Shown: positions 2,070 through 26,496 of the stretch, piece after piece
Layout: the number at the start of each line of letters is the position of its first letter
How positions within the stretch are numbered: the first letter of the stretch is position 1
Source of the DNA: a virus
Virus record (IMG/VR): IMGVR_UViG_3300028920_000242
Coordinates: 1 to 26,496 of that record
Direction: 5' to 3' (one strand)
DNA length: 26,496 nucleotides
The notes under the pieces: model-generated
Databases searched by the model: none
What the model was told of the DNA's origin: nothing
What the model saw: the letters and a program-made list of their open reading frames with translations, nothing else
Translations under genes and position numbers: made by a program

Positions 2070-3796
2070 CAGAGGGACATCAGCCCGCGATCTTCGTAGA
2101 CGCTCTTGCGGATCTCCGGCTGAACGATGGCCCGGCCGATGGCCATCACGAGGGCAACGATCCCGTCGATCCTTTCAGCACTGCGCTTCTTACTTGGTTT
2201 GATGTTCTCCGCACTGTCCAGCTCGACGGTCACGTTGGCGGCTTGCCAGCGGAGCATCGGGTTGCCGCCGTGGGCGAGCTGGCCGCCGACGACGAGCTTT
2301 TCGAGCGCCTTGGTCGGCGCCGACATGGACGCGAAGCCCTGGCCGAACGGCACGATCGTCAGCCCCTCGGCGGCGAGCAGTTGCTGCAGGTGCTCGCTGT
2401 TCCAACGGTCGACGGCGATCTCGCGGATGGCGTACCGCTGGGCGATCTGGCAGACGTCGGCCCGGATGCGGTCGTAATCGACGACGTTCCCGGGGGTCAG
2501 CGTCACCAGCCCTTGCCGCGACCAGGTCATGTAGGGGACGCGGTCGCGGCGTTCCCGCAGCGGGGCGTTGTCGGCGGGGACCCAATGCCAGGCCAGCACG
2601 GCATTGGTCTTCGGGAAGTACAAATCGAAGGCCGACAGGTCCCGCGTGCTGGACAGGTCCAGCCCGCCGAAGCATTCCTGTCCGACGAGCTCGTCGGGGT
2701 CGACGTCGCCCTCGCAGGCGTCCCACCGTTCCAGCGGCAGCCAGCGGGTCTCCTGCTGGGTCTTCACGTTCAAGTGGAGCCGCCGGAAGGTGTTTTCTCG
2801 TGCCGGCACCTCGCGGGCCTTTTGGCATTCTGCCGCGAGATGTTCCTTCGAGACGGACACGCCGAGGTTGGGGTTCGCCATCCGCCAGGCCTTCGGCTTC
2901 GTCCAATCGTCGTCGACGTCGACGCTGTAGATCACCGGCAGGAAGCTGGCATCCTCGATCACCCCATCCCGCACACGTTCGGCGTAGGCGAGGACCTCGT
3001 TGCAGATGGACTCTCGCTCGTGGTCGGCGGTGGTGATGTACAGGACGAGCGGCTGCGCCCGGGCGCCGGTGGAGGTCGTCAGCGTATCGACCAGCTCGCG
3101 GTCCTTCTGGACGTGCAGCTCGTCGATGACGACCAGATGGCTGTTGTAGCCGTGCTTGGTCCCGGCCTCGGCCGAGATCGACCGATAGGAGCTGTTCGTA
3201 TCGGTGAAGACGACGCTGTGCTGGAAGATCTCCGCTCGCCGCGTCAGCTCGGCGTCCTGGCGGATCATCTGCTTGACGATCTCGCGGACGATCGACGCCT
3301 GGTCGCGGTCGCCGGCGGCGGAGTAGATCTCGGCGCCCGGCTCGCCGTCGCAGAAACCGACCAGGCAGACGATCCCGGCGGCGAGGGTCGTCTTGCCGTT
3401 TTTGCGGGGCACGTAGACGAGGCATTCGCGGTAGCGACGGAGCCCGTCGGGCCGTTTCCAGCCGAACAGGTTGCCGACGATCGCCTGCTGCCAGCGTTCG
3501 AGCTTGAGCGGCTGGCCGGCCTGTCGGCCCTTGACGTGGGTCAGGCACTCGTTGAAGAAGTCCACGGCTCGCCGTGCGGCGTCCGGATCCCAGTGGCAAT
3601 CTCCCGCGGTGGCCCAGGGATCGTAGCCTGGGATCTTCGTGCGGCAGATGGTTCGCAGTGACGTCGGCGCCTTTTGGCGTTTCGTCGCCCGTTTCGTCCG
3701 CCTTGCCGGCCGCGACGCGGCCCGCTTGGGCTTAGCCGGAGCCTTTGCCGAAGAACCTCGTCTTGGTGTCCGTGTCGTCTTCTGCGGCGTCGGCAT
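2069..3796 (-). CDS. terL: Terminase large subunit (HK97-like ATPase-nuclease)
   Basis: This is the DNA-packaging motor, which hydrolyses ATP to pump DNA through the portal and cuts concatemers. Of 575 residues, the first ~45 are a Lys/Arg/Ala/Pro-rich tail. The ATPase has Walker A VPRKNGKTT (129-137) and Walker B LVVIDE (221-226). The C-terminal nuclease starts with GGLDLSSTRD (377-386), whose Asp residues would bind metal, and closes with RIDGIVALVMAIGRA near residues 545-560. The ATG at 3796 overlaps the small terminase gene by 65 nt. No other ATG occurs before the conserved part, so the basic tail is probably real, though the start has only a weak ribosome-binding site. The stop shares a base with the fusion gene start at 2069. 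Confidence 0.95.
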   Translation of the reverse strand: MPTPQKTTRTPRRGSSAKAPAKPKRAASRPARRTKRATKRQKAPTSLRTICRTKIPGYDPWATAGDCHWDPDAARRAVDFFNECLTHVKGRQAGQPLKLERWQQAIVGNLFGWKRPDGLRRYRECLVYVPRKNGKTTLAAGIVCLVGFCDGEPGAEIYSAAGDRDQASIVREIVKQMIRQDAELTRRAEIFQHSVVFTDTNSSYRSISAEAGTKHGYNSHLVVIDELHVQKDRELVDTLTTSTGARAQPLVLYITTADHERESICNEVLAYAERVRDGVIEDASFLPVIYSVDVDDDWTKPKAWRMANPNLGVSVSKEHLAAECQKAREVPARENTFRRLHLNVKTQQETRWLPLERWDACEGDVDPDELVGQECFGGLDLSSTRDLSAFDLYFPKTNAVLAWHWVPADNAPLRERRDRVPYMTWSRQGLVTLTPGNVVDYDRIRADVCQIAQRYAIREIAVDRWNSEHLQQLLAAEGLTIVPFGQGFASMSAPTKALEKLVVGGQLAHGGNPMLRWQAANVTVELDSAENIKPSKKRSAERIDGIVALVMAIGRAIVQPEIRKSVYEDRGLMSL

Positions 3797-4196
3797 GGAG
3801 TCCCACGCGATCGGCCGGGCTCAGCCCGAGCTTCGCCCCGGTCCGCAGCATGGCCTGGAGGGCTTGTTCGGCGGTGATCTCGACTCGCCTCCGCTCGGCC
3901 GAGCCCCGGGGCATGCCCTTGCCGCCCCTTCTCAGGACCGACAGAGCCCCGAGCCAGTCGCTGTAGGCCTGGCAGTACCCTGCGATGACCCCCTCATCGG
4001 CCAGCGTCAGCACGCCCATGGCCTCGAGGACCGGCAGGAGCCGATCCCAGGTCCGCTTTGCCCGGGCATCGAGTCCTCGGGGCTGCTGGGGTCGACCCGG
4101 CGGGGCCTTCGGTTCGCCCTTCCGTTTCTTCGCTCTCCAGGATCCCCGGAGCTTCAGGATCGGCGTCGGCGTCGGTTGTGGACCTCGTTTCCCCAT
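3732..4196 (-). CDS. terS: Terminase small subunit (P27 family)
   Basis: A 154-residue protein beginning MGKRGPQPTPTPILKLRGSW, the RGPxPxPT...LRG signature of P27-type small terminases, which recognise the packaging site and recruit the large subunit. The middle (about 50-110) is helical and ends with the common 'E..LG..P..R' segment (KLGLSPADRVGL). It sits between the HNH nuclease (stop 69 nt upstream of its start) and the large terminase, whose start overlaps its 3' end by 65 nt. The order HNH - TerS - TerL - portal is typical of HNH-dependent cos or headful packaging systems. Confidence 0.92.
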   Translation of the reverse strand: MGKRGPQPTPTPILKLRGSWRAKKRKGEPKAPPGRPQQPRGLDARAKRTWDRLLPVLEAMGVLTLADEGVIAGYCQAYSDWLGALSVLRRGGKGMPRGSAERRRVEITAEQALQAMLRTGAKLGLSPADRVGLHADAAEDDTDTKTRFFGKGSG

Positions 4197-5481: not shown

Positions 5482-6170
5482 CTCAGTTGGGTGTAGTGGT
5501 GCATGAAGACGGGAATGCTCGTCGGCATCGGCACGTCGGCCAACACATCACCCATCATGATGTAGTCCAGATACATCGTCGCATAGAAGGCGTCCGGGTT
5601 GGAGAACCCGGCCCAGAGCGCGTTGAGCGACATGGCGCTTCCGCCGTGCCCCGAATCCACCGCCTGACAGACCTGCGCCCCGTCCATGTAGACCGTCGCC
5701 GTAGCGGCCGATGCGCCTGCGACGTAGGTGATCTGGACCCAATACCAGGTGTCTATGGCAATCGGCGTGGACGACCACGAGAACCCCGTCCAACTCCCGT
5801 CGTCGCCCCTGCATCGGACGCCAAATTGAAGGTCGCTGCCGCTCTTGCGGATGTCAACGTGAACGCGCCCCGATGTCCCCTGGAGCATGTAGAACGCCCG
5901 CACATCCTCGCCATCGTCCCAGCCGATCCCTCCGTCGAGCCGGAACCACATCCCGACGGCCATCGTGTTTGTGAAGCTGTAGTCCGTCTGCTTGGCGTAG
6001 GCGTCGTCGTCGCTCGATCCGGCCACATCGCAGGCGAGATAGTACGTCCCCTCGATGCGCACCCCGACCGCAGACCCAACGGCCACAGAGCCGCCGTTGT
6101 TGGCAACTTGTGACGACCAGCCATCGGGCCAGGAACCCGTCTCGTGGTCTATGGTCGCGCGGAGCGCCAT
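5472..6170 (-). CDS. LamG/concanavalin A-like lectin protein, probable receptor-binding component
   Basis: A 232-residue protein with a single jelly-roll lectin fold pattern: FTNTMAVGMWFRLDGG, then FYMLQGTSGRVHVDIRKSG, DTWYWVQITYVAGAS and TATVYMDGAQVCQ, ending with a beta strand MYLDYIMMGD. This is the usual LamG/laminin G order (a 'W.H..V.Y.....ATVYVDG' core followed by 'LDDI..G'). There is no signal peptide. In phages such domains often sit in fibres or tips that bind glycans. A good ribosome-binding site (GGGAGG, 6 nt from the ATG) supports the start, which lies 22 nt inside the PEP-CTERM gene end. It could also be a carbohydrate-binding capsid ornament. Confidence 0.75.
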   Translation of the reverse strand: MALRATIDHETGSWPDGWSSQVANNGGSVAVGSAVGVRIEGTYYLACDVAGSSDDDAYAKQTDYSFTNTMAVGMWFRLDGGIGWDDGEDVRAFYMLQGTSGRVHVDIRKSGSDLQFGVRCRGDDGSWTGFSWSSTPIAIDTWYWVQITYVAGASAATATVYMDGAQVCQAVDSGHGGSAMSLNALWAGFSNPDAFYATMYLDYIMMGDVLADVPMPTSIPVFMHHYTQLRCA

Positions 6171-6811
6171 CTAGGCCTCCCCAAGAACACCAACCCGCCC
6201 AGCAGCAGCATCGCCGTCGCCGGTTCGGGAATCGGGCGGGGGTCGGTGTCGTACAGCCAGTAGTTGCCCACGTCGGCCTCGATTTCGGCTTCGGCCGGGG
6301 AATGAAAGAGCTTGGCGTCCTCGCCACGAACCATCAGGCCATGCAGCCAGTAAATTCCCGCCGGGACAACGCCTTCGTAATAGATGTTGTCGTCGTTGGA
6401 GTTATCCTCGGGCGTGGGGTCGGCCTCAACATGAGGCGCCCAGGTCAGATCGGCATAGAGAACGTGCCCGCAGACGTACTTCGTCCCGCCGATCCACTGC
6501 ACCATCTCCGGGCCACGATCTGCCCACGGGTTCAGGTCGGCGTAGCCGAAGACGTTTACCGGGTTGTCGCCCGTCCACGTCGGTTTGAAGCGGATGCCGG
6601 TGAGGTCCGTAGCGCCACGGCGGTTGTCGATGACGCCCAGCATGGCGACGTACTTGACCCCGTTCGGGTCGCGGAGGGTGTTGCCGTCGCGGTCCAGTTC
6701 GGCGGCGTCGATGTAGTCGTTCTCCCGTCCGGCCGGCAGAGTCGCCGCCAAGCTGCTCGCCGTCACCGCAAGCAGCACCAGCCCCGTCAGCCCTTTGATG
6801 CTCGTTCTCAT
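6149..6811 (-). CDS. PEP-CTERM secreted protein, phage-encoded exosortase substrate
   Basis: A 220-residue protein with an N-terminal signal peptide (charged MRTSIKG, hydrophobic LTGLVLLAVTASSLA, likely cleavage after SLAA). The C-terminal sorting tail is textbook: PIPEPATAMLLLGGLVFLG followed by an Arg cluster (RPRWRSARP), which is PEP box, transmembrane helix, basic end. Cellular exosortases recognise such tails, cut near the PEP box and release or anchor the protein at the envelope, usually in bacteria that make exopolysaccharide. The middle domain (about 30-190) is not recognised; it is acidic and rich in Asp, Tyr and Trp. The ribosome-binding site AAAGGAG lies 7 nt before the ATG. It is the first gene of the late operon, next to the lectin gene. 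No exosortase gene is present, so a host enzyme would be needed. Confidence 0.85.
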   Translation of the reverse strand: MRTSIKGLTGLVLLAVTASSLAATLPAGRENDYIDAAELDRDGNTLRDPNGVKYVAMLGVIDNRRGATDLTGIRFKPTWTGDNPVNVFGYADLNPWADRGPEMVQWIGGTKYVCGHVLYADLTWAPHVEADPTPEDNSNDDNIYYEGVVPAGIYWLHGLMVRGEDAKLFHSPAEAEIEADVGNYWLYDTDPRPIPEPATAMLLLGGLVFLGRPRWRSARP

Positions 6812-6880: not shown

Positions 6881-7171
6881 TCAGACCTGGCCGATGATCT
6901 GGTCGGGTCCGAGGCGGTCCATCTCCAGCGGCGGCATGGCCACGGATGCGGCCTGGGATGCGGGCCTGGCAGGCAGCGGCAGGCCGCTGGCCCGCAGGTT
7001 CGCCCGACCCCGAGCCAGCAGGCCGTTGGCCGAAGACGGGCAGATGCCCATCCGCGAGGCGATCTCCCGCTGGGACAGCCCATCGTGATGATGCCATGCC
7101 AGGGCGATGAGCTGCCTCGCGGTGAGCCGCTTGGCGGCCCCGGAGACGATTCGCAGCCGCAGCCGCGACAT
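6881..7171 (-). CDS. Sigma-70 region 4-like HTH protein, candidate late regulator
   Basis: A 96-residue protein starting MSRLRLRIVSGAA. Residues about 15-65 match the region 4 pattern of sigma-70 factors: LTARQLIALAWHHHDGLSQ, then REIASRMGICPSSANGLLAR with a helix-turn-helix, then RANLRASG. No region 2 is present, so it is more likely a transcription activator or sigma-appropriation factor than a full sigma factor. I chose the ATG at 7171, preceded by AGAGGGG, over the TTG at 7243. The next gene downstream is the first late gene, preceded by an extended -10-like site, so late-operon control is a natural hypothesis. Function is inferred from motif and position. Confidence 0.72.
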   Translation of the reverse strand: MSRLRLRIVSGAAKRLTARQLIALAWHHHDGLSQREIASRMGICPSSANGLLARGRANLRASGLPLPARPASQAASVAMPPLEMDRLGPDQIIGQV

Positions 7172-7212
7172 AGCCCCTCTGTAAGACGGCTCCGTGCGCT
7201 CGCGCCTATGCG

Positions 7213-7335
7213 TCAAGTCGTGCTCCTGTCGGTTATTAGGCAATCAGTCATGGCCGCATCCTTTGTTGCCCCCGCGAACAGGGGGCCGCTGATGCGGCGG
7301 TTGGCCTCCCCGCATATGATCCGGCTCGCCGTCAT
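7213..7335 (-). CDS. Tiny hypothetical protein (40 residues)
   Basis: The ATG overlaps the stop of the upstream coiled-coil gene (ATGA) and has GGGGAG 8 nt before it. The product begins MTASRIICGEANRR and ends at a TGA at 7213. No family is recognised, and the case rests on spacing and ribosome-binding site alone. It may be only a leader for the sigma-like gene that starts 41 nt after its stop. Confidence 0.3.
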   Translation of the reverse strand: MTASRIICGEANRRISGPLFAGATKDAAMTDCLITDRSTT

Positions 7336-8090: not shown

Positions 8091-8157
8091 CGCTGTTCTC
8101 CTTCTCCCCGCCGTCGTCGGGCTGGGCGGCGCCCGTTTGATCACCTTCCCTGTTCAT
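8050..8157 (-). CDS. Possible tiny protein (35 residues) overlapping the zinc-ribbon start
   Basis: The ATG at 8157 has a near-perfect ribosome-binding site (AGGAGAAG) and opens a 35-residue frame, MNREGDQTGAAQPDDGGEKE and onward. It shares the DGGEKE tail motif with neighbouring small genes and overlaps the upstream zinc-finger gene by 17 nt. The zinc-ribbon start at 8090 lies inside it in another frame. It may be a real peptide or a leader that couples translation to the zinc-ribbon gene. Confidence 0.35.
   Translation of the reverse strand: MNREGDQTGAAQPDDGGEKENSDGDSVHKRCASGM
8096..8121 (-). repeat. Hairpin/SD repeat element, copy 4
   Basis: The minus strand reads CCCGACGACGGCGGGGAGAA and onward: the same element as 7843-7869 with one changed base in the stem. 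It supplies AAGGAGAAC, the ribosome-binding site for the zinc-ribbon ATG at 8090. Confidence 0.75.
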
Positions 8158-8503
8158 CGCTTCTCCTGCCCGCCGGCAGCAGATCGCAGAGCCTCGCGGC
8201 CGACCGGGCATCCAGGATTGCGAGGCCGGTGAGCGGCTTGCGGGTCGCGTTCTGGATGGGCGTGCCGTCCGGCCAGGTCCAGAACGGGTCGGGCTCGTAA
8301 CGCTCCCGCCGCTCGTAGCCGGCGGGCACCAGCCCCGCGAGGTAGCAGCCGTAGCAGACATCCTTCCAGGGCGTCTCGATCGGCCCGCCGCACAGACGGC
8401 ACCGCGGGCCCTGGATTTCGTCTCGGGCTGTCGTCGCATGTTGCCCTCGAGCTCGGCGTCGCTGGCGAGAAACCATCCATGGTCCGATCGTGCCGTTGGC
8501 CAT
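8141..8503 (-). CDS. Zinc-finger protein of the early region
   Basis: A 120-residue protein (from the ATG at 8503) with one zinc site, CRLCGGPIETPWKDVCYGC (35-53), in a treble-clef-like arrangement. It is followed by an aromatic stretch (DPFWTWPDGTPIQ) and a helix (LTGLAILDARSAARLCDLL). The start is uncertain: ATGs at 8512 and 8518 and a GTG at 8533 are also in frame, and all lie in or next to the left arm of the large inverted repeat, so binding there could control this gene. There are no strong family matches; a DNA-binding regulator is plausible. Confidence 0.65.
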   Translation of the reverse strand: MANGTIGPWMVSRQRRRARGQHATTARDEIQGPRCRLCGGPIETPWKDVCYGCYLAGLVPAGYERRERYEPDPFWTWPDGTPIQNATRKPLTGLAILDARSAARLCDLLPAGRRSDEQGR

Positions 8504-8521
8504 GCCCACCATGGGCATGTT
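8503..8521 (+). repeat. Large inverted repeat, left arm
   Basis: TGCCCACCATGGGCATGTT, exactly complementary to 8560-8578 (19 of 19). Within the arm ATGCCCA-CCA-TGGGCAT is itself a perfect 7-bp hairpin, so the structure is nested. Confidence 0.95.
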
Positions 8522-8526
8522 GTTAC

Positions 8527-8542
8527 ACAACACTACTGTTGT
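8527..8542. repeat. Hairpin inside the inverted-repeat spacer
   Basis: ACAACA-CTAC-TGTTGT is a perfect 6-bp stem with a 4-nt loop, located in the AT-rich 38-nt spacer between the two 19-bp arms. An ACAT-type tandem repeat follows at about 8548-8559. Confidence 0.85.
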
Positions 8543-8559
8543 TCATTACATACATACAT

Positions 8560-8578
8560 AACATGCCCATGGTGGGCA
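8560..8578 (+). repeat. Large inverted repeat, right arm
   Basis: AACATGCCCATGGTGGGCA, the exact complement of 8503-8521. With the left arm it can form a cruciform with a hairpin in its loop. Candidate origin, operator or recombination site. Confidence 0.95.
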
Positions 8579-8647
8579 GCCGATCCACATCTTGGGGCTT
8601 CCGGTCCTGACCGACCCCAGCGGTAGGGGGTCCGTTTTCGCCGTCCT

Positions 8648-8769
8648 CGCCAAGTCGACTTCAACTCGAGTGACACTCGACTTCAACTCGACTTCAACTC
8701 GACTTGGCGTGCCGCAAGGCGACTTCATCTCGACTTCATCTCGACTTGAACTCGACTTCATCTCGACTT
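8648..8769. repeat. Phased 11-bp repeat array (two blocks of five), candidate origin iterons
   Basis: The core CGACTT begins at 8656, (8667 degenerate, CGAGTG), 8678, 8689 and 8700, and again at 8720, 8731, 8742, 8753 and 8764. Within each block the spacing is exactly 11 bp; the blocks are 20 bp apart. Units in block 1 read CTCGACTTCAA and those in block 2 mostly CTCGACTTCAT. Block 1 is bounded by the inverted pair CGCCAAGTCG (8648-8657) and CGACTTGGCG (8700-8709). One unit per helical turn points to cooperative protein binding on one face of the DNA. Confidence 0.9.
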
Positions 8770-8830
8770 GGCTGATCGCATCATCTCCCGCCTGTTGGCA
8801 TCTGGCCGATTGCCAACAGGTACCAACAGG

Positions 8831-8839
8831 TTATCCACA
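8831..8839 (+). promoter_or_regulatory. DnaA box (perfect consensus)
   Basis: TTATCCACA matches the strict bacterial DnaA-binding consensus. It sits at the end of the winged-helix gene (its TAA stop is within the box on the minus strand) and adjoins the phased repeat array, as expected for a host-dependent origin. Confidence 0.7.
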
Positions 8840-9505
8840 GGCGACGACGGCGAGCAGGCCGGCATCGTCCAGGGCATTCTGGAGGGCTTCGCGGCCGATG
8901 CGGGTCTGCCCGACCTGGGCGAGGAACTCCCCAAGCACCTTGCGGAGGTGGCCCCCGCCCGCGTCTCGATCCACCATCGCGTTAAGAAGATCCTCGTGCT
9001 CACCCGCTGGCGTCTCGTCGGGTCCGGGCGGCATCATGAAGTTGAAGGCGAGCTGGGCGATGGACTGCTGCGCGGAGCCCTCAGACATGAGGGCCGCACG
9101 GGCGAAGGCGGCTCGCCCTCGCCGCCTGGCCTCGCTGACGGCCCCGGCGTACAGATCCGGATGGGCCGGCCCCCAAAAGTAGCCGTGGCCCGGGACGCCG
9201 ACGATCCGCCATTCTCGCCAGTGCACCTGGGCATAGGTCACCAGGGCCCGGACGGCTCGTGGCCCGCCACGGTGCAGAAACAGCGCCCTGGCGACCTGGT
9301 CGCCCGTCATGCACCTGGGCGTGATTTCCGGGACGCCATGGCCCTGCAGCAGGCTTTTCAGTTCATCGACGAGCCCGTCCAGTCCCGTCCGGGTTGCGGG
9401 CAAGCTCCGCAGGCCGATGGGATCCCATGACGGCCGCGTGCGCTCGTGTCTGACATACGGCCAGATGGTATCCGGCAGATCTGCGTGACGTGGTTCGTGT
9501 GCCAT
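8831..9505 (-). CDS. Winged-helix-like DNA-binding protein, probable replication protein
   Basis: A 224-residue protein. Residues about 60-125 fit a winged-helix pattern seen in small phage replication proteins: MTGDQVARALFLHRGGPRAV, then a 'wing' segment VGVPGHGYFWGPAHPDLYAG, then an Arg-rich helix EARRRGRAAFARAALM. The C-terminal half is helical. The start (ATG at 9505) lies 1 nt after the stop of the preceding gene with AGGTGAG close upstream, so the two form an operon. It ends on the DnaA box beside the repeat array, so it is a candidate iteron-binding initiator. The family assignment is by pattern only. Confidence 0.55.
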   Translation of the reverse strand: MAHEPRHADLPDTIWPYVRHERTRPSWDPIGLRSLPATRTGLDGLVDELKSLLQGHGVPEITPRCMTGDQVARALFLHRGGPRAVRALVTYAQVHWREWRIVGVPGHGYFWGPAHPDLYAGAVSEARRRGRAAFARAALMSEGSAQQSIAQLAFNFMMPPGPDETPAGEHEDLLNAMVDRDAGGGHLRKVLGEFLAQVGQTRIGREALQNALDDAGLLAVVACG

Positions 9506-9506
9506 C

Positions 9507-10052
9507 TCACCTGTCCTTTCCGGGTTCCTGGTCCTCGACCGCCCAGCCTTTGCTGAGTGCCGTGCGGATCCATGCGGCGGGGTTTTTCAGGCGCTTGGCC
9601 TGGGCTCGCGCCGCCGCGCAGACCTGGACGATGCGCGCGGGCCGATAGGTGGCCATGATTTTGCCGGCGCCGTTGACCCCGAACTCGGCGAGCGCGGCGA
9701 TCGCGTCGTGCTCGGCCCGGCTGGGATTCTTGGTAGGGGCAGGTGATGGAGACGCAGGAGATGCCCCGGCGACATCGAGATCGGCCGTGGGTCCCTGGCT
9801 GCCGTCGTCGCGGCCATCCTGGCCGCTGTTACGCTCGCGCTTGCAGTGCCCCGGACGGGTCGTCCCGTCCGTGGTTGGTTGACAGCCGACAGGGGCTCTG
9901 TCCGTGCTTTCGGGTACATCCTCGACGTCGCCCGGCTCCGCGGCCTGCCGGGGCATCTCCCGCGTCTCCATTCCTGGGCAGCCGGCCTGGCCGAGCACTT
10001 CGATGCGGACCTGGCCGCTGCTGTCCAACGTGATGATGAGGCGTGTGGTCAC
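9507..10052 (-). CDS. Probable replication-associated protein
   Basis: A 181-residue protein beginning at a GTG (10052) that overlaps the small membrane-protein stop by 4 nt (GTGA). The N-terminus, TTRLIITLDSSGQVRIEVL, is a short beta unit. A long low-complexity Pro/Ser/Asp linker follows (about 35-115). The C-terminal ~65 residues, from HDAIAALAEFGVNGAGKIMA to NPAAWIRTALSKGW, resemble the C-terminal helical module of plasmid and phage replication proteins ('NPaGwL..Al..gW'). This domain is suggestive rather than diagnostic. It precedes the winged-helix gene in one operon near the putative origin. Confidence 0.6.
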   Translation of the reverse strand: MTTRLIITLDSSGQVRIEVLGQAGCPGMETREMPRQAAEPGDVEDVPESTDRAPVGCQPTTDGTTRPGHCKRERNSGQDGRDDGSQGPTADLDVAGASPASPSPAPTKNPSRAEHDAIAALAEFGVNGAGKIMATYRPARIVQVCAAARAQAKRLKNPAAWIRTALSKGWAVEDQEPGKDR

Positions 10053-10162
10053 TGTCGCCCGATCAGATGCTCGTCCTCGGCCTCGCAGATCGCCCATATG
10101 AGGGCGAGCAGCAGGACCGCCGCCACCAGTCCGATGATCACGCCCGCGGTTGCGAGAACCAT
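10049..10162 (-). CDS. Tiny single-pass membrane protein (37 residues)
   Basis: It starts MVLATAGVIIGLVAAVLLLA, one transmembrane helix, and ends with a short charged tail CEAEDEHLIGRQ. AAAGGAG lies 9 nt before the ATG, and the stop overlaps the next gene's GTG start. The translation signals are strong although the frame is very short. Function unknown. Confidence 0.65.
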   Translation of the reverse strand: MVLATAGVIIGLVAAVLLLALIWAICEAEDEHLIGRQ

Positions 10163-10992: not shown

Positions 10993-11235
10993 TCATGTCT
11001 CATCCCCCCGATCGTCCGCCACGACCAGCTCGCCCATCGGCACGCGGAGGGCCTTGGCAAGGGCCGCCACCGTCGCCTCGGCCACGCCGCCGCCGGTCAG
11101 TGCCCGTTGCACGGTCGTCCAGGCGAGCCCCGACTGCTCGGCCAGCTTCACCATCGACCAGCCCTTCAGCAGCCGGGCCTTCTCCAGCCGCGAGATGTCG
11201 TATCGGTAGGTCATCGCTATCACGGTAGAGGTCAT
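10993..11235 (-). CDS. XRE/Cro-like helix-turn-helix repressor
   Basis: An 80-residue protein. The HTH covers about 20-70: ARLLKGWSMVKLAEQSGLAW, then TTVQRALTGGG, then TVAALAKALRVPMGEL, the five-helix XRE pattern with recognition helix around WTTVQRAL. The ATG at 11235 has a weak AGGG ribosome-binding site. A second ATG at 11214 gives a 73-residue form starting MTYRYDISRLEKARL and is also plausible. A -35-like TTGACA lies just upstream. The gene is divergent from the only plus-strand gene, so this pair looks like a lysogeny- or copy-control switch. Confidence 0.82.
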   Translation of the reverse strand: MTSTVIAMTYRYDISRLEKARLLKGWSMVKLAEQSGLAWTTVQRALTGGGVAEATVAALAKALRVPMGELVVADDRGDET

Positions 11236-11317
11236 CGGTTACCCTGTCAAGTCTTTTTTATCTTTTTTCTTCACTTCTCACGCCAACGTTCTATCATACT
11301 CACGAAGGGAGTTTGCC
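11236..11317. promoter_or_regulatory. Divergent promoter/operator region
   Basis: An 82-nt AT-rich gap between the minus-strand repressor gene and the plus-strand membrane-protein gene. Plus-strand candidate: TTCACT (11270-11275), 16 nt, TATCAT (11292-11297), 20 nt before the ATG. Minus-strand candidate: TTGACA (complement of 11245-11250); the best -10 at 17-nt spacing is weak (TACCGT) and would fall inside the reading frame, implying a leaderless transcript from 11214. No clear operator repeat is seen. Confidence 0.5.
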
Positions 11318-17249: not shown

Positions 17250-17601
17250 CGTTTTGACAAGCTGTCGCTCGCCCCAGGGATCCCGGGATCAGTTGGGAGT
17301 AGTTGCCCAGAAACCGCTTCATCTCGCCCGGCGTCCGCGCCTTGCGGCCGGCCTGCACCAGCGGCATGAAGTCGCCTGGCTTGTAGGCTCGGCCCCGCTT
17401 GCCTCGCCAGGCGTTGGCCATCGCCGCGCAGATCAGCCCGCTGCGCAGGTCCGCCCGCTCCTCGCCCCAGGGCTCCTCGTGGAAGTACGCCGCCCACTCG
17501 GCCAGTTCGCGGGCGTCCACGGTGGTCAGCAGCTCGCGGACGGATCGGCTCAGGAGGGCGGCCAGGCGGAAGTAGAACCGCCTCGCCGGCCGCCGCCTCA
17601 G
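17233..17601 (-). CDS. Tail assembly chaperone -1 frameshift extension (gpT-like part)
   Basis: This frame is read after a -1 slip at 17607-17601 in the preceding gene; it has no good start of its own. It encodes 122 residues starting LRRRPARRFYFRLAALLSRS, with the DUF4035-like core ELAEWAAYFHEEPWGEERAD, then LRSGLICAAMANAWRGK and KPGDFMPL. That is the usual T-domain pattern ('LaeW.A....PWGeeRaDlR...i...ian..rgk'). Joined to the 117-residue G-like part it gives about 239 residues. The G and GT pair chaperones tape measure and tube assembly in lambda-like tails. It overlaps the tape-measure start by 17 nt. Confidence 0.85.
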   Translation of the reverse strand: MRRRPARRFYFRLAALLSRSVRELLTTVDARELAEWAAYFHEEPWGEERADLRSGLICAAMANAWRGKRGRAYKPGDFMPLVQAGRKARTPGEMKRFLGNYSQLIPGSLGRATACQNDGDDR

Positions 17602-20528: not shown

Positions 20529-21818
20529 CTACTGCCAGGCGTCCTTGGGTTTACCGTTCTCCCAGAAGTCTTTGGGCGTCTGCCAGACGGCCTTCGCCTC
20601 CGGACCCGGCCGGCCCGGCCATCCGATCATCAGCTCGGCGTGGCCGATCACCACGCGGGGGGCCAGGTAGAGGGTGTTGCCGAGCTTATGCCACCACCGC
20701 CAGAACCAGATGTCGTCATCGACCCGCCCCTCGTCCCAGCGGCCGTCGGGGCCCGGGCGGCTGTGAAACCACGGCTTCTTCATCGCCTTGAGCTTCTCCG
20801 TCCGGATCAGCGTCAGGCCGAAGTGCGCCGTCGTCACCTGTAGAAGCTCCTGCTGCAACTCCTCCATGGCGACCTTGTCGCGGTTCTTCCCGTCGTCGCC
20901 CTGGATGGTCATCATCGGATAGGGCGTGTGACGGTGGATCTGGACCGGGGCCAGGGCATCGATCTCCGGGTGAGCGGCGAACAGCTCGCAAAGCCGGCGG
21001 ACGTCGTCCACGGTGAAGACGCTGTCGTAGTCGAGCGTCAGGATCGCCCCGGCACCCTCCTCGACCGTCTGCTCCATGCCACGCTCGAGGCATTGCCCCC
21101 AGAACGCCCCAGAAACCTTCTTGAGCCCGATCTTCAGCGGAAGAAAGGCCTGGAAGGCCGCGAAGAAGTTGTCCTGGAAGCCCAGCCGCGGAATGCTCAT
21201 CACCGCCGAGACATGCAGATCATCGCGCGGCCCGTAGGTGGTCGGCTTCGGGGCCGAGGCCGGCTGGACCACTGGAAACGCCGGCTGGCCGTGCATGCTC
21301 ATCGGCTTGCGGCCCTGGAGGTTCAGGCTGATCGGCAGGCTCGCACAGTCGCCGACCTCCGTGGTCCACGGCTCGATCTGCTCGAGCCCCGCCGCCTCCA
21401 GGAGGCCGCGGAGCTTCTGCTCGTTGAAGATCGATCGGTGGAAGTCGTCCTCGTCGCCCTGGCCGCCCATCAGCCACGCCTCGATCGGATCGTCGTGCCC
21501 TGGCTCATGGTATCGCTTGACGATCGCGGTGAAGTTTGGCACGGCGATCCGCAGCAGCCCGCCCGGCTCGAGCGCCCGGATCCAGTCACAGAGGATCTCG
21601 GGCGTCCGCTGGTGGCTGAAATGCTCCAGCAGGTGGCTGGCGCGGATCTCGGCCACCGAATCGTCGGGGTACTTTAGCGGCACCGCCTCGCCGCCTCGCC
21701 GGTGATCCACGGCCACGTAGCCGGGGATGTGCGAGATCCCCGACCCGAGATTCAGCTTCAGAGGTTTTGCGGCGCTGTCGTCGCCGTCCGCGCGTAGCCC
21801 AACCTTTCCATCGCCCAT
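20529..21818 (-). CDS. Methyltransferase-glycosyltransferase fusion
   Basis: A 429-residue protein with two domains. Residues ~20-165 form a SAM-dependent methyltransferase of the class 11 type: LNLGSGISHIPGYVAVDHR (22-40), EIRASHLLEHF (57-67) and LEPGGLLRIAVPNF (83-96). Residues ~195-429 look like a GT-A-type glycosyltransferase: SAVMSIPRLGF, LTLDYDSVFT (260-269; DxD-type D263/D265), and later VDDDIWFWRWWH with IGHAELMIGWPG. The ATG at 21818 is chosen for GGGAGA 7 nt upstream; the frame is open further upstream. It overlaps the sulfotransferase end by 61 nt. It could add and methylate a sugar on a capsid, decoration or surface glycan, but acceptor and donor are unknown. Confidence 0.85.
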   Translation of the reverse strand: MGDGKVGLRADGDDSAAKPLKLNLGSGISHIPGYVAVDHRRGGEAVPLKYPDDSVAEIRASHLLEHFSHQRTPEILCDWIRALEPGGLLRIAVPNFTAIVKRYHEPGHDDPIEAWLMGGQGDEDDFHRSIFNEQKLRGLLEAAGLEQIEPWTTEVGDCASLPISLNLQGRKPMSMHGQPAFPVVQPASAPKPTTYGPRDDLHVSAVMSIPRLGFQDNFFAAFQAFLPLKIGLKKVSGAFWGQCLERGMEQTVEEGAGAILTLDYDSVFTVDDVRRLCELFAAHPEIDALAPVQIHRHTPYPMMTIQGDDGKNRDKVAMEELQQELLQVTTAHFGLTLIRTEKLKAMKKPWFHSRPGPDGRWDEGRVDDDIWFWRWWHKLGNTLYLAPRVVIGHAELMIGWPGRPGPEAKAVWQTPKDFWENGKPKDAWQ

Positions 21819-22423
21819 CCATGTATCTCCCAAAAGCGTGCCTCGTCCTCGGCACTCATTTCGTGCCGCCACGTCCCGATCCGCCCTTTGCGGAAGATCT
21901 TCGGGACCAGACGGCGGAAGCGATCGAAGTCGTTGCGCCAGTCCGTGCGGACGGGCGGCCCCAGTGTCTTTGCCATCTCACCGATCGCCCAGCCGGGCCG
22001 CTCGAGCAAGTCCTCGTAGCGTACAAGCAGCGTATTCGGCCGGCCGCCCGGCCAGGGCGCCCAGCGGGCGACGTGTTCCGCCCACCGCTGCCAGCTCGGC
22101 AGACCGTCGATCACGTAGCGGACGGGCCGGTTGTACATCGCCGCCATCGAGCAGCAGGCGTCCCGACCGTCCCGGACCACGTAGATCGCGGGACGGTCGT
22201 CGCCCTCGATCGGCCACCGGTGGGTCTTGACCACGGCGCCAGGCAGATGGAACCGCATCGTGATGCCGGGCACCGGCGGGTTGACGTAGGCCCTCCGGTT
22301 GGGCAGCAGCCCGTCCAGCATCGGCTCGTTGTAGATCGACGGGCAGTCGCGGTCCCAGCAATGCTGGATGATGAGCCGCGCGAGGGTGTTGCCGCTCCGC
22401 GGCCAACTTGCCAGCCAGATCAC
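21758..22423 (-). CDS. PAPS-dependent sulfotransferase
   Basis: A 221-residue enzyme with the core motifs of sulfotransferases: WPRSGNT (7-13, the 5'-phosphosulfate loop), VKTHRW (65-70, catalytic His region), YVVRDGRDACCS (81-92, 3'-phosphate binding), VRYEDLLERP and RKGRIGTWRHEM (178-189). It would transfer sulfate from PAPS to a hydroxyl on an acceptor in the cytoplasm. It starts at GTG (22423), 2 nt after the decoration-type gene, and is followed by the methyltransferase-glycosyltransferase fusion. No sulfotransferase is expected in a head-morphogenesis module. The acceptor cannot be read from sequence. Confidence 0.88.
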   Translation of the reverse strand: MIWLASWPRSGNTLARLIIQHCWDRDCPSIYNEPMLDGLLPNRRAYVNPPVPGITMRFHLPGAVVKTHRWPIEGDDRPAIYVVRDGRDACCSMAAMYNRPVRYVIDGLPSWQRWAEHVARWAPWPGGRPNTLLVRYEDLLERPGWAIGEMAKTLGPPVRTDWRNDFDRFRRLVPKIFRKGRIGTWRHEMSAEDEARFWEIHGWAMERLGYARTATTAPQNL

Positions 22424-25473: not shown

Positions 25474-26496
25474 TTATCGGTGCGCAAGCAGGCATGCAGG
25501 CGCCCGCGCCACCTCGGCCACGGTGTTCATCACGTGATCGGCGAGTTGAGCGGGACGCGAGAGCTGCCATTCGGCCAGGACCCGCTCGGGCTGGGGCCCG
25601 TCGGCCAGGGCTCGCCGCGCGGCGTTCGCCTCGTGGATCGCCAGTTGGGCCATCGCGGCCACCACCGCCGCCCGGGTCTCGGCCGCCCGCAGACCGATGG
25701 CCTCGGCGTAGGCCCTCGCCGCCGGGGTCAGCACCTCGGCCACGTGCGCGGCGTGGTTGCCGTTGCCGTAGAACCGCTCGACCGCCTTGCAAAAGTCCTG
25801 CCGCTTCGCGGCGGTTCGCATGGCGTTGATCTCTTTGGTAACGATGCGGCGGGCAAGCTCGACGAGCAGCTCCCGGTGGGCCCGGCCGTCCGGTTTGTCG
25901 GCAGGGCTGTCGGACGTATCGTCGTCATCGTCCTCGTCCGGGTCCGGCGGCCCTGGCGGCAAGGCGGTCGGCCGGTCGGCCGGGGCCATGTTCACCGGCA
26001 CCCAGTACCGATCGCCCCCGGCAATCGGGTTGAGATTCTCTTTCTCGCGAATCTCGTTGGCCGACAGGACACCCAGGTTCCACAGCTCGCGGTAGAACTG
26101 CCCGCGGGCCCGGCTGTCGCCCCGCAGCAGCCCTTCGACGAGGAACTCGCCAAAGAAGTTCGTGCTCCATGGCCCGAACAGCTTCCGGTTGCATTCGAGC
26201 TCCCATCGGCGGAGCCAGGGCATCAGTGTGTGCCGCACGAAGTCGATCGACTGGTGCTCGATGTTCGAGAAGGTCGCCCGCTCCAGGTCGCCCAGCATGT
26301 GCGGCGGGATCTGGTAGATGCGGGCCACCTCGGTCACCTGGAACTTCCGCGTCTCCAGGAACTGGGCGTCGTCGGGCGGGATCCCGATCTGCTGCCAGGT
26401 CATCCCCTCTTCGAGGATGGCGATGCGGTGGGCGTTGTCGAGCCCCTTGTGCATCCGCTCCCAGCTCGCCCGGAGGTTGTCCCTCGCCTTCTCGTT
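25474..26496 (-). CDS. Portal protein (HK97 family), C-terminal part
   Basis: This is the rest of the portal gene that starts at 809. The first 149 bases duplicate 1-149, and the protein then continues to a TAA at 25474-25476. Conserved portal features include RKFQVTEVARIYQIPPHMLG, the following TFSNIEHQSIDFVRHTLMPW, and the clip/stem segment GVLSANEIREKENLNPI. After about residue 400 there is an acidic stretch (DPDEDDDDD), and then about 150 residues of Ala-rich helix not found in minimal portals. That extension could be a scaffold-like or core-binding domain, which is my inference. The prohead protease gene follows after 17 nt with its own strong ribosome-binding site. Confidence 0.93.
   Translation of the reverse strand, partial: NEKARDNLRASWERMHKGLDNAHRIAILEEGMTWQQIGIPPDDAQFLETRKFQVTEVARIYQIPPHMLGDLERATFSNIEHQSIDFVRHTLMPWLRRWELECNRKLFGPWSTNFFGEFLVEGLLRGDSRARGQFYRELWNLGVLSANEIREKENLNPIAGGDRYWVPVNMAPADRPTALPPGPPDPDEDDDDDTSDSPADKPDGRAHRELLVELARRIVTKEINAMRTAAKRQDFCKAVERFYGNGNHAAHVAEVLTPAARAYAEAIGLRAAETRAAVVAAMAQLAIHEANAARRALADGPQPERVLAEWQLSRPAQLADHVMNTVAEVARAPACLLAHR
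26348..26496. repeat. Terminal direct repeat, right copy (circular overlap)
   Basis: Second copy of bases 1-149, with one mismatch at 26370. Removing one copy gives a 26,347-bp circle in which the portal gene is intact. Confidence 0.95.

Follow-up and report, generated by a model that had tools for sequence, protein, structure and literature searches.

A candidate iteron-type replication origin with phased 11-bp repeats in a virus genome of about 26.3 kb

Repeats and AT-rich tract at 8503–8839

The virus record IMGVR_UViG_3300028920_000242 (26,496 bp, analysed at full length and called the window here) carries at 8503–8839 a compact group of repeats next to an AT-rich tract. This region is probably where replication starts, as an iteron-type origin, in a siphovirus of ~26.3 kb whose genome is circular or forms concatemers. 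Although classed as having no end repeats, the record shows a 149-bp overlap between its ends (1–149 and 26348–26496, a single position differing), and the reading frame of the portal gene crosses the end join; the genome therefore looks circular or permuted, with a length of ~26,347 bp. Its G+C content is roughly 67%. The features of the region and the two adjoining genes are as follows.

8503–8578: 19/19 inverted repeat with nested hairpins around an AT-rich tract, confirmed base by base, with the weakest 40-bp duplex of the genome inside it; candidate DNA-unwinding element
8517–8566: AT-rich tract, 68% AT, tied with 11249–11298 as the AT-richest 50-mer of the window
8567–8651: G+C-rich spacer from the AT-rich tract to the repeats
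8652–8709 (+): putative iteron block 1, near-palindromic, bounded by CGCCAAGTCG/CGACTTGGCG; units at 8656, 8667 (degenerate), 8678, 8689 and 8700
8718–8772 (+): putative iteron block 2; units at 8720, 8731, 8742, 8753 and 8764
8791–8830: second repeat family, three copies of CCAACAGG at 8791–8798 (inverted), 8813–8820 and 8823–8830
8831–8839 (+): DnaA box TTATCCACA, perfect consensus, overlapping the end of gene 8831–9505
8831–9505 (−): gene for a 224-aa protein, possible winged helix and candidate initiator, no detectable homologue
9507–10097 (−): gene for a 196-aa protein, candidate second initiation protein, helical C-terminal third in a low-confidence model, no detectable homologue

The perfect inverted repeat with hairpins in arm and loop, described in an earlier sequence-only reading of this DNA, was borne out at every base. 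Its arms (8503–8521 and 8560–8578) are complementary at 19/19 positions and enclose a loop of 38 nt, with one hairpin nested in the arm (TGCCCA-CCA-TGGGCA, 8503–8517) and another in the loop (ACAACA-CTAC-TGTTGT, 8527–8542). It is the longest perfect inverted repeat of the window (the runner-up has 13 bp) and far exceeds the expectation from shuffled sequences, and the 361-nt single strand of the region folds at z = −8.4 relative to shuffles. When the circle was scanned with a 40-bp window, the duplex was weakest from 8524, within the inverted repeat; with windows of 60 bp or more, the weakest duplex lay instead at the other AT-rich peak, at 11.24 kb, ahead of an HTH_3 gene. This second weak-duplex peak of the genome (11239–11298) is immediately upstream of the HTH_3 gene and is a probable early promoter region. 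The possibility that the inverted repeat acts as an intrinsic terminator was rejected: short stems that have T-rich tails did match in the scan, but no T run follows the long hairpin. Matches to Rfam were weak, microRNA-like hairpins far under the gathering scores, and were taken as chance.

The array itself comprises ten units in two blocks of five, with a unit step of exactly 11 bp within blocks and 20 bp between them. The 11-bp steps and the two blocks of five had been read correctly before, together with ten copies of CGACTT, of which nine are exact and the one at 8667 is degenerate (CGAGTG). The 10-bp inverted pair reported to bound block 1 is also present (CGCCAAGTCG at 8648–8657 and CGACTTGGCG at 8700–8709). 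The array scores 186 (11-bp period: 105) by Tandem Repeats Finder, whereas 100 dinucleotide shuffles of the complete window reached 74 at most. Units of CTCGACTT are restricted to the 340-bp region, except that the 11-bp motif has one isolated match at 17369. The region has the tandem, helically phased direct repeats of an iteron origin, and an easily melted AT-rich tract lies beside them at a distance of ~85 bp. The presence and spacing of these elements, their almost complete restriction to this part of the genome and the weak duplex are directly established.

Between the array and the 224-aa gene, the second repeat family was found to be larger than the two copies of CCAACAGG first listed (8813 and 8823), a third, inverted copy at 8791 having been overlooked; none occurs elsewhere in the window. 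The perfect DnaA box TTATCCACA, also listed before, is present once in the window, with an expectation of 0.03 copies in a shuffled window. Its minus strand, TGT GGA TAA, supplies the final two codons and stop of gene 8831–9505, and the box is hence also coding sequence.

The strongest local turn of GC skew was located at 8793 with 1-kb windows (block-permutation P 0.38–0.54), at 9008 with 1.5-kb windows (P 0.005–0.018) and at 9005 with 2-kb windows (P at most 0.0025). The turn runs from C-rich on its left to G-rich on its right, as expected at a bidirectional origin. The skew check proposed for ~8.6 kb thus agrees locally, while the global extremes of cumulative skew lie elsewhere, at 3878 and 18954.

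The 224-aa gene directly abuts the region, and its product is a candidate cognate initiator lacking a homologue or a confident fold. The order helix-helix-strand-strand, as predicted in a low-confidence model, would fit a winged helix. The earlier description of the two neighbours as probable replication genes did not hold up, being founded on gene position and weak secondary-structure hints; neither protein has a homologue.

Phased repeats in other phages

Three CGACTT units at 11-bp steps were found at 30 viral loci, about 25 of which are distinct by our own count after removing duplicates; four such units were absent from 398 genomes. In 6/25 distinct loci the array lies within a gene of replication-initiator type, i.e., DUF1376 genes (loci L035, L036, L039 and L047), a DUF6291 gene, a candidate initiator type (L044, the same as L052), and a gene for a phrog replication-initiation protein (L053). 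Relatives of the DUF1376 genes bear the annotations DNA replication protein O, primosomal protein or replication protein, and in several phages these relatives are followed by DnaC-type loaders or a helicase. Within the initiator-type genes the array comes after the N-terminal domain, with an AT-rich tract next in most of the six, an arrangement like that reported for lambda and Stx phages (PMC7466680). If an initiator gene is assumed, as we did, to span 2.5–5% of a phage genome, the binomial P of 6/25 is 3e-5 to 1e-3.

A control hexamer of the same composition (TTCAGC) at 11-bp steps gave 15 loci, about 13 of them distinct, and 0/13 distinct loci lay in a recognised replication gene. Because the control also yielded 15 loci, CGACTT itself was dropped as a shared motif, and the claim is restricted to the 11-bp phasing and its context. 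Even the phasing is not universal, as 11-bp arrays were not found in all GenBank DUF1376 genes. CGACTT arrays also lie beside tyrosine integrases (L029 at 2619, L049 at 1620, L055 at 1658, L057 at 8180 and L038 at 5202), possibly as attP arm-type sites, and the motif alone therefore does not identify an origin.

Closer relatives were obtained by a TerL alignment search, including L091 (TerL 58% identical). Here a DUF1376-like gene (E 1.6e-4, short of the curated threshold) contains 11-bp-phased TGCGAACGCAA units at 2467, 2489 and 2500, with an AT-rich stretch after them, a layout suggesting that the origin of this related phage is likewise phased at 11 bp and is served by a different initiator. 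In the stretches examined, none of the TerL relatives matches the early-region proteins of the window, suggesting that the early module is not conserved among them. DNA similarity searches gave no phage match, and plasmids gave one 23-bp match in one plasmid.

A possible origin of a 70% GC phage was seen in L041, where a gene for a 323-aa protein (2523–3494) carries 11-bp CACTGACC-type repeats and three CGACTTCAAA-type units (3735–3762) lie ~240 bp upstream.

Proposed origin function and alternative readings

The case for an origin made in the sequence-only reading gains from the least stable 40-bp window (8524), the local skew turn (8793–9008) and the 11-bp phasing of CGACTT in initiator-type genes of unrelated phages. 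We infer an initiator, its binding, melting of the DNA and origin activity along the following lines. A phage initiator, most likely the 224-aa product, would bind one unit per helical turn, all ten 11-bp units lying on the same face, and once bound would wrap the DNA; host DnaA at TTATCCACA may assist. Strain would open the AT-rich tract between the arms of the 19-bp inverted repeat, and the host helicase would be loaded at the opened tract, perhaps via the 196-aa protein.

The region is a likely phage iteron origin; its kind is already known, and what is unusual is its layout and its proteins without known relatives. In lambda and Stx phages, four to six iterons and an AT-rich region lie in the middle of gene O (PMC7466680). 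Like the lambda origin, the present region combines tandem repeats with an AT-rich tract and adjoins a gene for a possible DNA-binding protein, but the lambda units are longer than 11 bp, and here the ten units form two blocks outside the gene. The DnaA box, the placing of the AT-rich tract inside a perfect inverted repeat and the lack of any detectable relation to O or P are further differences. DUF1376/YdaU-type genes (L035, L036, L039, L047 and L091) share the 11-bp step, and four of them the CGACTT core; their arrays follow the N-terminal domain, with the AT-rich tract 3′ on the coding strand in most. They contain few units, inside the gene, whereas ten intergenic units are found here beside a protein with no DUF1376 match. 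Iteron plasmid origins (pSC101, RK2, F and P1 type) likewise bring together repeats, a DnaA box and an AT-rich region. Iterons of these plasmids measure about 17–22 bp. The present genome, in contrast, shows no Rep-family protein and no meaningful plasmid match. The earlier opinion that the region is more plasmid-like than phage-like was not sustained, given that O-type initiator genes of phages contain repeats phased at 11 bp and that neither the proteins nor the DNA match plasmids, apart from the one 23-bp DNA match. As this phasing is found in phages, plasmid ancestry is not needed. A fuller proposal is tentative and rather doubtful: that a protein pair without known relatives replaces an O/P-type pair, together with two-block, ten-unit iterons outside the initiator gene, an unwinding tract caged in a perfect 19-bp inverted repeat and a host DnaA box in the region. 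If the origin assignment is true, it provides a testable origin for a phage with unrecognised replication proteins. The comparison with other phages also suggests that 11-bp-phased repeats beside an AT-rich tract offer a simple search route to origins and initiators in unannotated phages.

Several observations weigh against an origin. The neighbouring proteins have no homologue in viral contigs, phages, plasmids, PDB, Pfam, PHROGs, NCBIfam or the records of the TerL loci, and AlphaFold, run without an alignment, gave no confident fold (pLDDT 39 and 44 for the 224-aa and 196-aa proteins). Nor does either match DUF1376 (PF07120) by Pfam search or profile comparison. No relative with the same region was found by a stricter repeat pattern, by DNA similarity or among the TerL relatives. 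The lambda origin lies within its initiator gene, while the present array comes after the gene, and the AT-rich tract, which could be a promoter, lies farther from the array (~85 bp) than its counterparts in most of the loci compared. The difference between CGACTT (6/25) and control arrays (0/13) is not significant (Fisher P 0.06), and at four distinct loci CGACTT arrays adjoin tyrosine integrases. The skew signal is confined to about 7.1–11.0 kb, ending within ~2 kb; the turn lacks significance with 1-kb windows and could stem from gene composition. The 224-aa protein has no relative in 13 array records or in 398 genomes of one phylum, and a PF07120 search of the whole record was empty, its control also being silent. 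The in-gene repeats of DUF1376 modules are lacking, since the array sits past the stop codon of gene 8831–9505.

The main rival to an origin, although an unlikely one, is an operator array, in which the 80-aa HTH_3 protein (10993–11235) or the 224-aa protein would bind the repeats and control leftward genes starting near 8533, the AT-rich tract being a promoter and the inverted repeat a leader hairpin. The region does occupy the gap separating the early genes from the gene that follows leftward, and a gene for a Cro/CI-type HTH protein lies close by. A dimer would be a suitable ligand for the near-palindromic, TCGA-centred units, and the possible start of ORF 8141–8533 falls in a stretch overlapped by the inverted repeat. 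Ten helically phased units are, however, many for an operator, and the motif occurs only in the array and as the single match at 17369, with none at the AT-rich, promoter-like region at 11.25 kb before the HTH_3 gene. The DnaA box and the skew turn would also be left unexplained. A sigma-70-like promoter was not found by the scan, although planctomycete-type promoters may differ.

Plasmid R1 parC has a split repeat arrangement (PMC5016525) of ten 11-bp direct repeats in two groups, equal in number and step to those described here. A partition centromere of this type is nonetheless very unlikely; a small DNA-binding protein would coat the ten repeats and link the DNA to a motor, and the phage would be maintained in plasmid form. 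The R1 blocks flank a promoter, whereas those of the window are 20 bp apart, too close for such an arrangement. Neither parM nor parR was found, and no Par family appeared among the early genes scanned; the genome also has no match to the ParM-type ATPase (PF06406), which is weak evidence because the control was silent. Barely plausible is that the units are integrase arm-type sites of an attP region. Similar 11-bp CGACTT arrays do adjoin tyrosine integrase genes in L029, L049, L038 and L055/L057, but the genome has no tyrosine integrase (PF00589) match in a search whose control was positive in all 14 genomes, and it is circular by its end overlap.

Other features of the genome

The genes for the large and small terminase subunits, an HNH endonuclease and the major head protein were assigned on the minus strand, which also carries a tape-measure-like protein with a weak match. 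Portal and protease were putatively assigned by similarity to relatives and by gene position. No tRNA was found in the tRNA search. A Sigma-70 region-4-like protein (6881–7243, −) is a possible late regulator. A PEP-CTERM-like protein (6149–6811, −), with a weak match slightly below the cut-off, and one protein matching a planctomycete sigma-factor family give a weak hint of a planctomycete host. The structural genes include those for a cytidylyltransferase-like protein, a methyltransferase plus glycosyltransferase-like fusion and a sulfotransferase (936–2069, 20529–21872 and 21758–22423, all −), with a possible role in surface-sugar modification.
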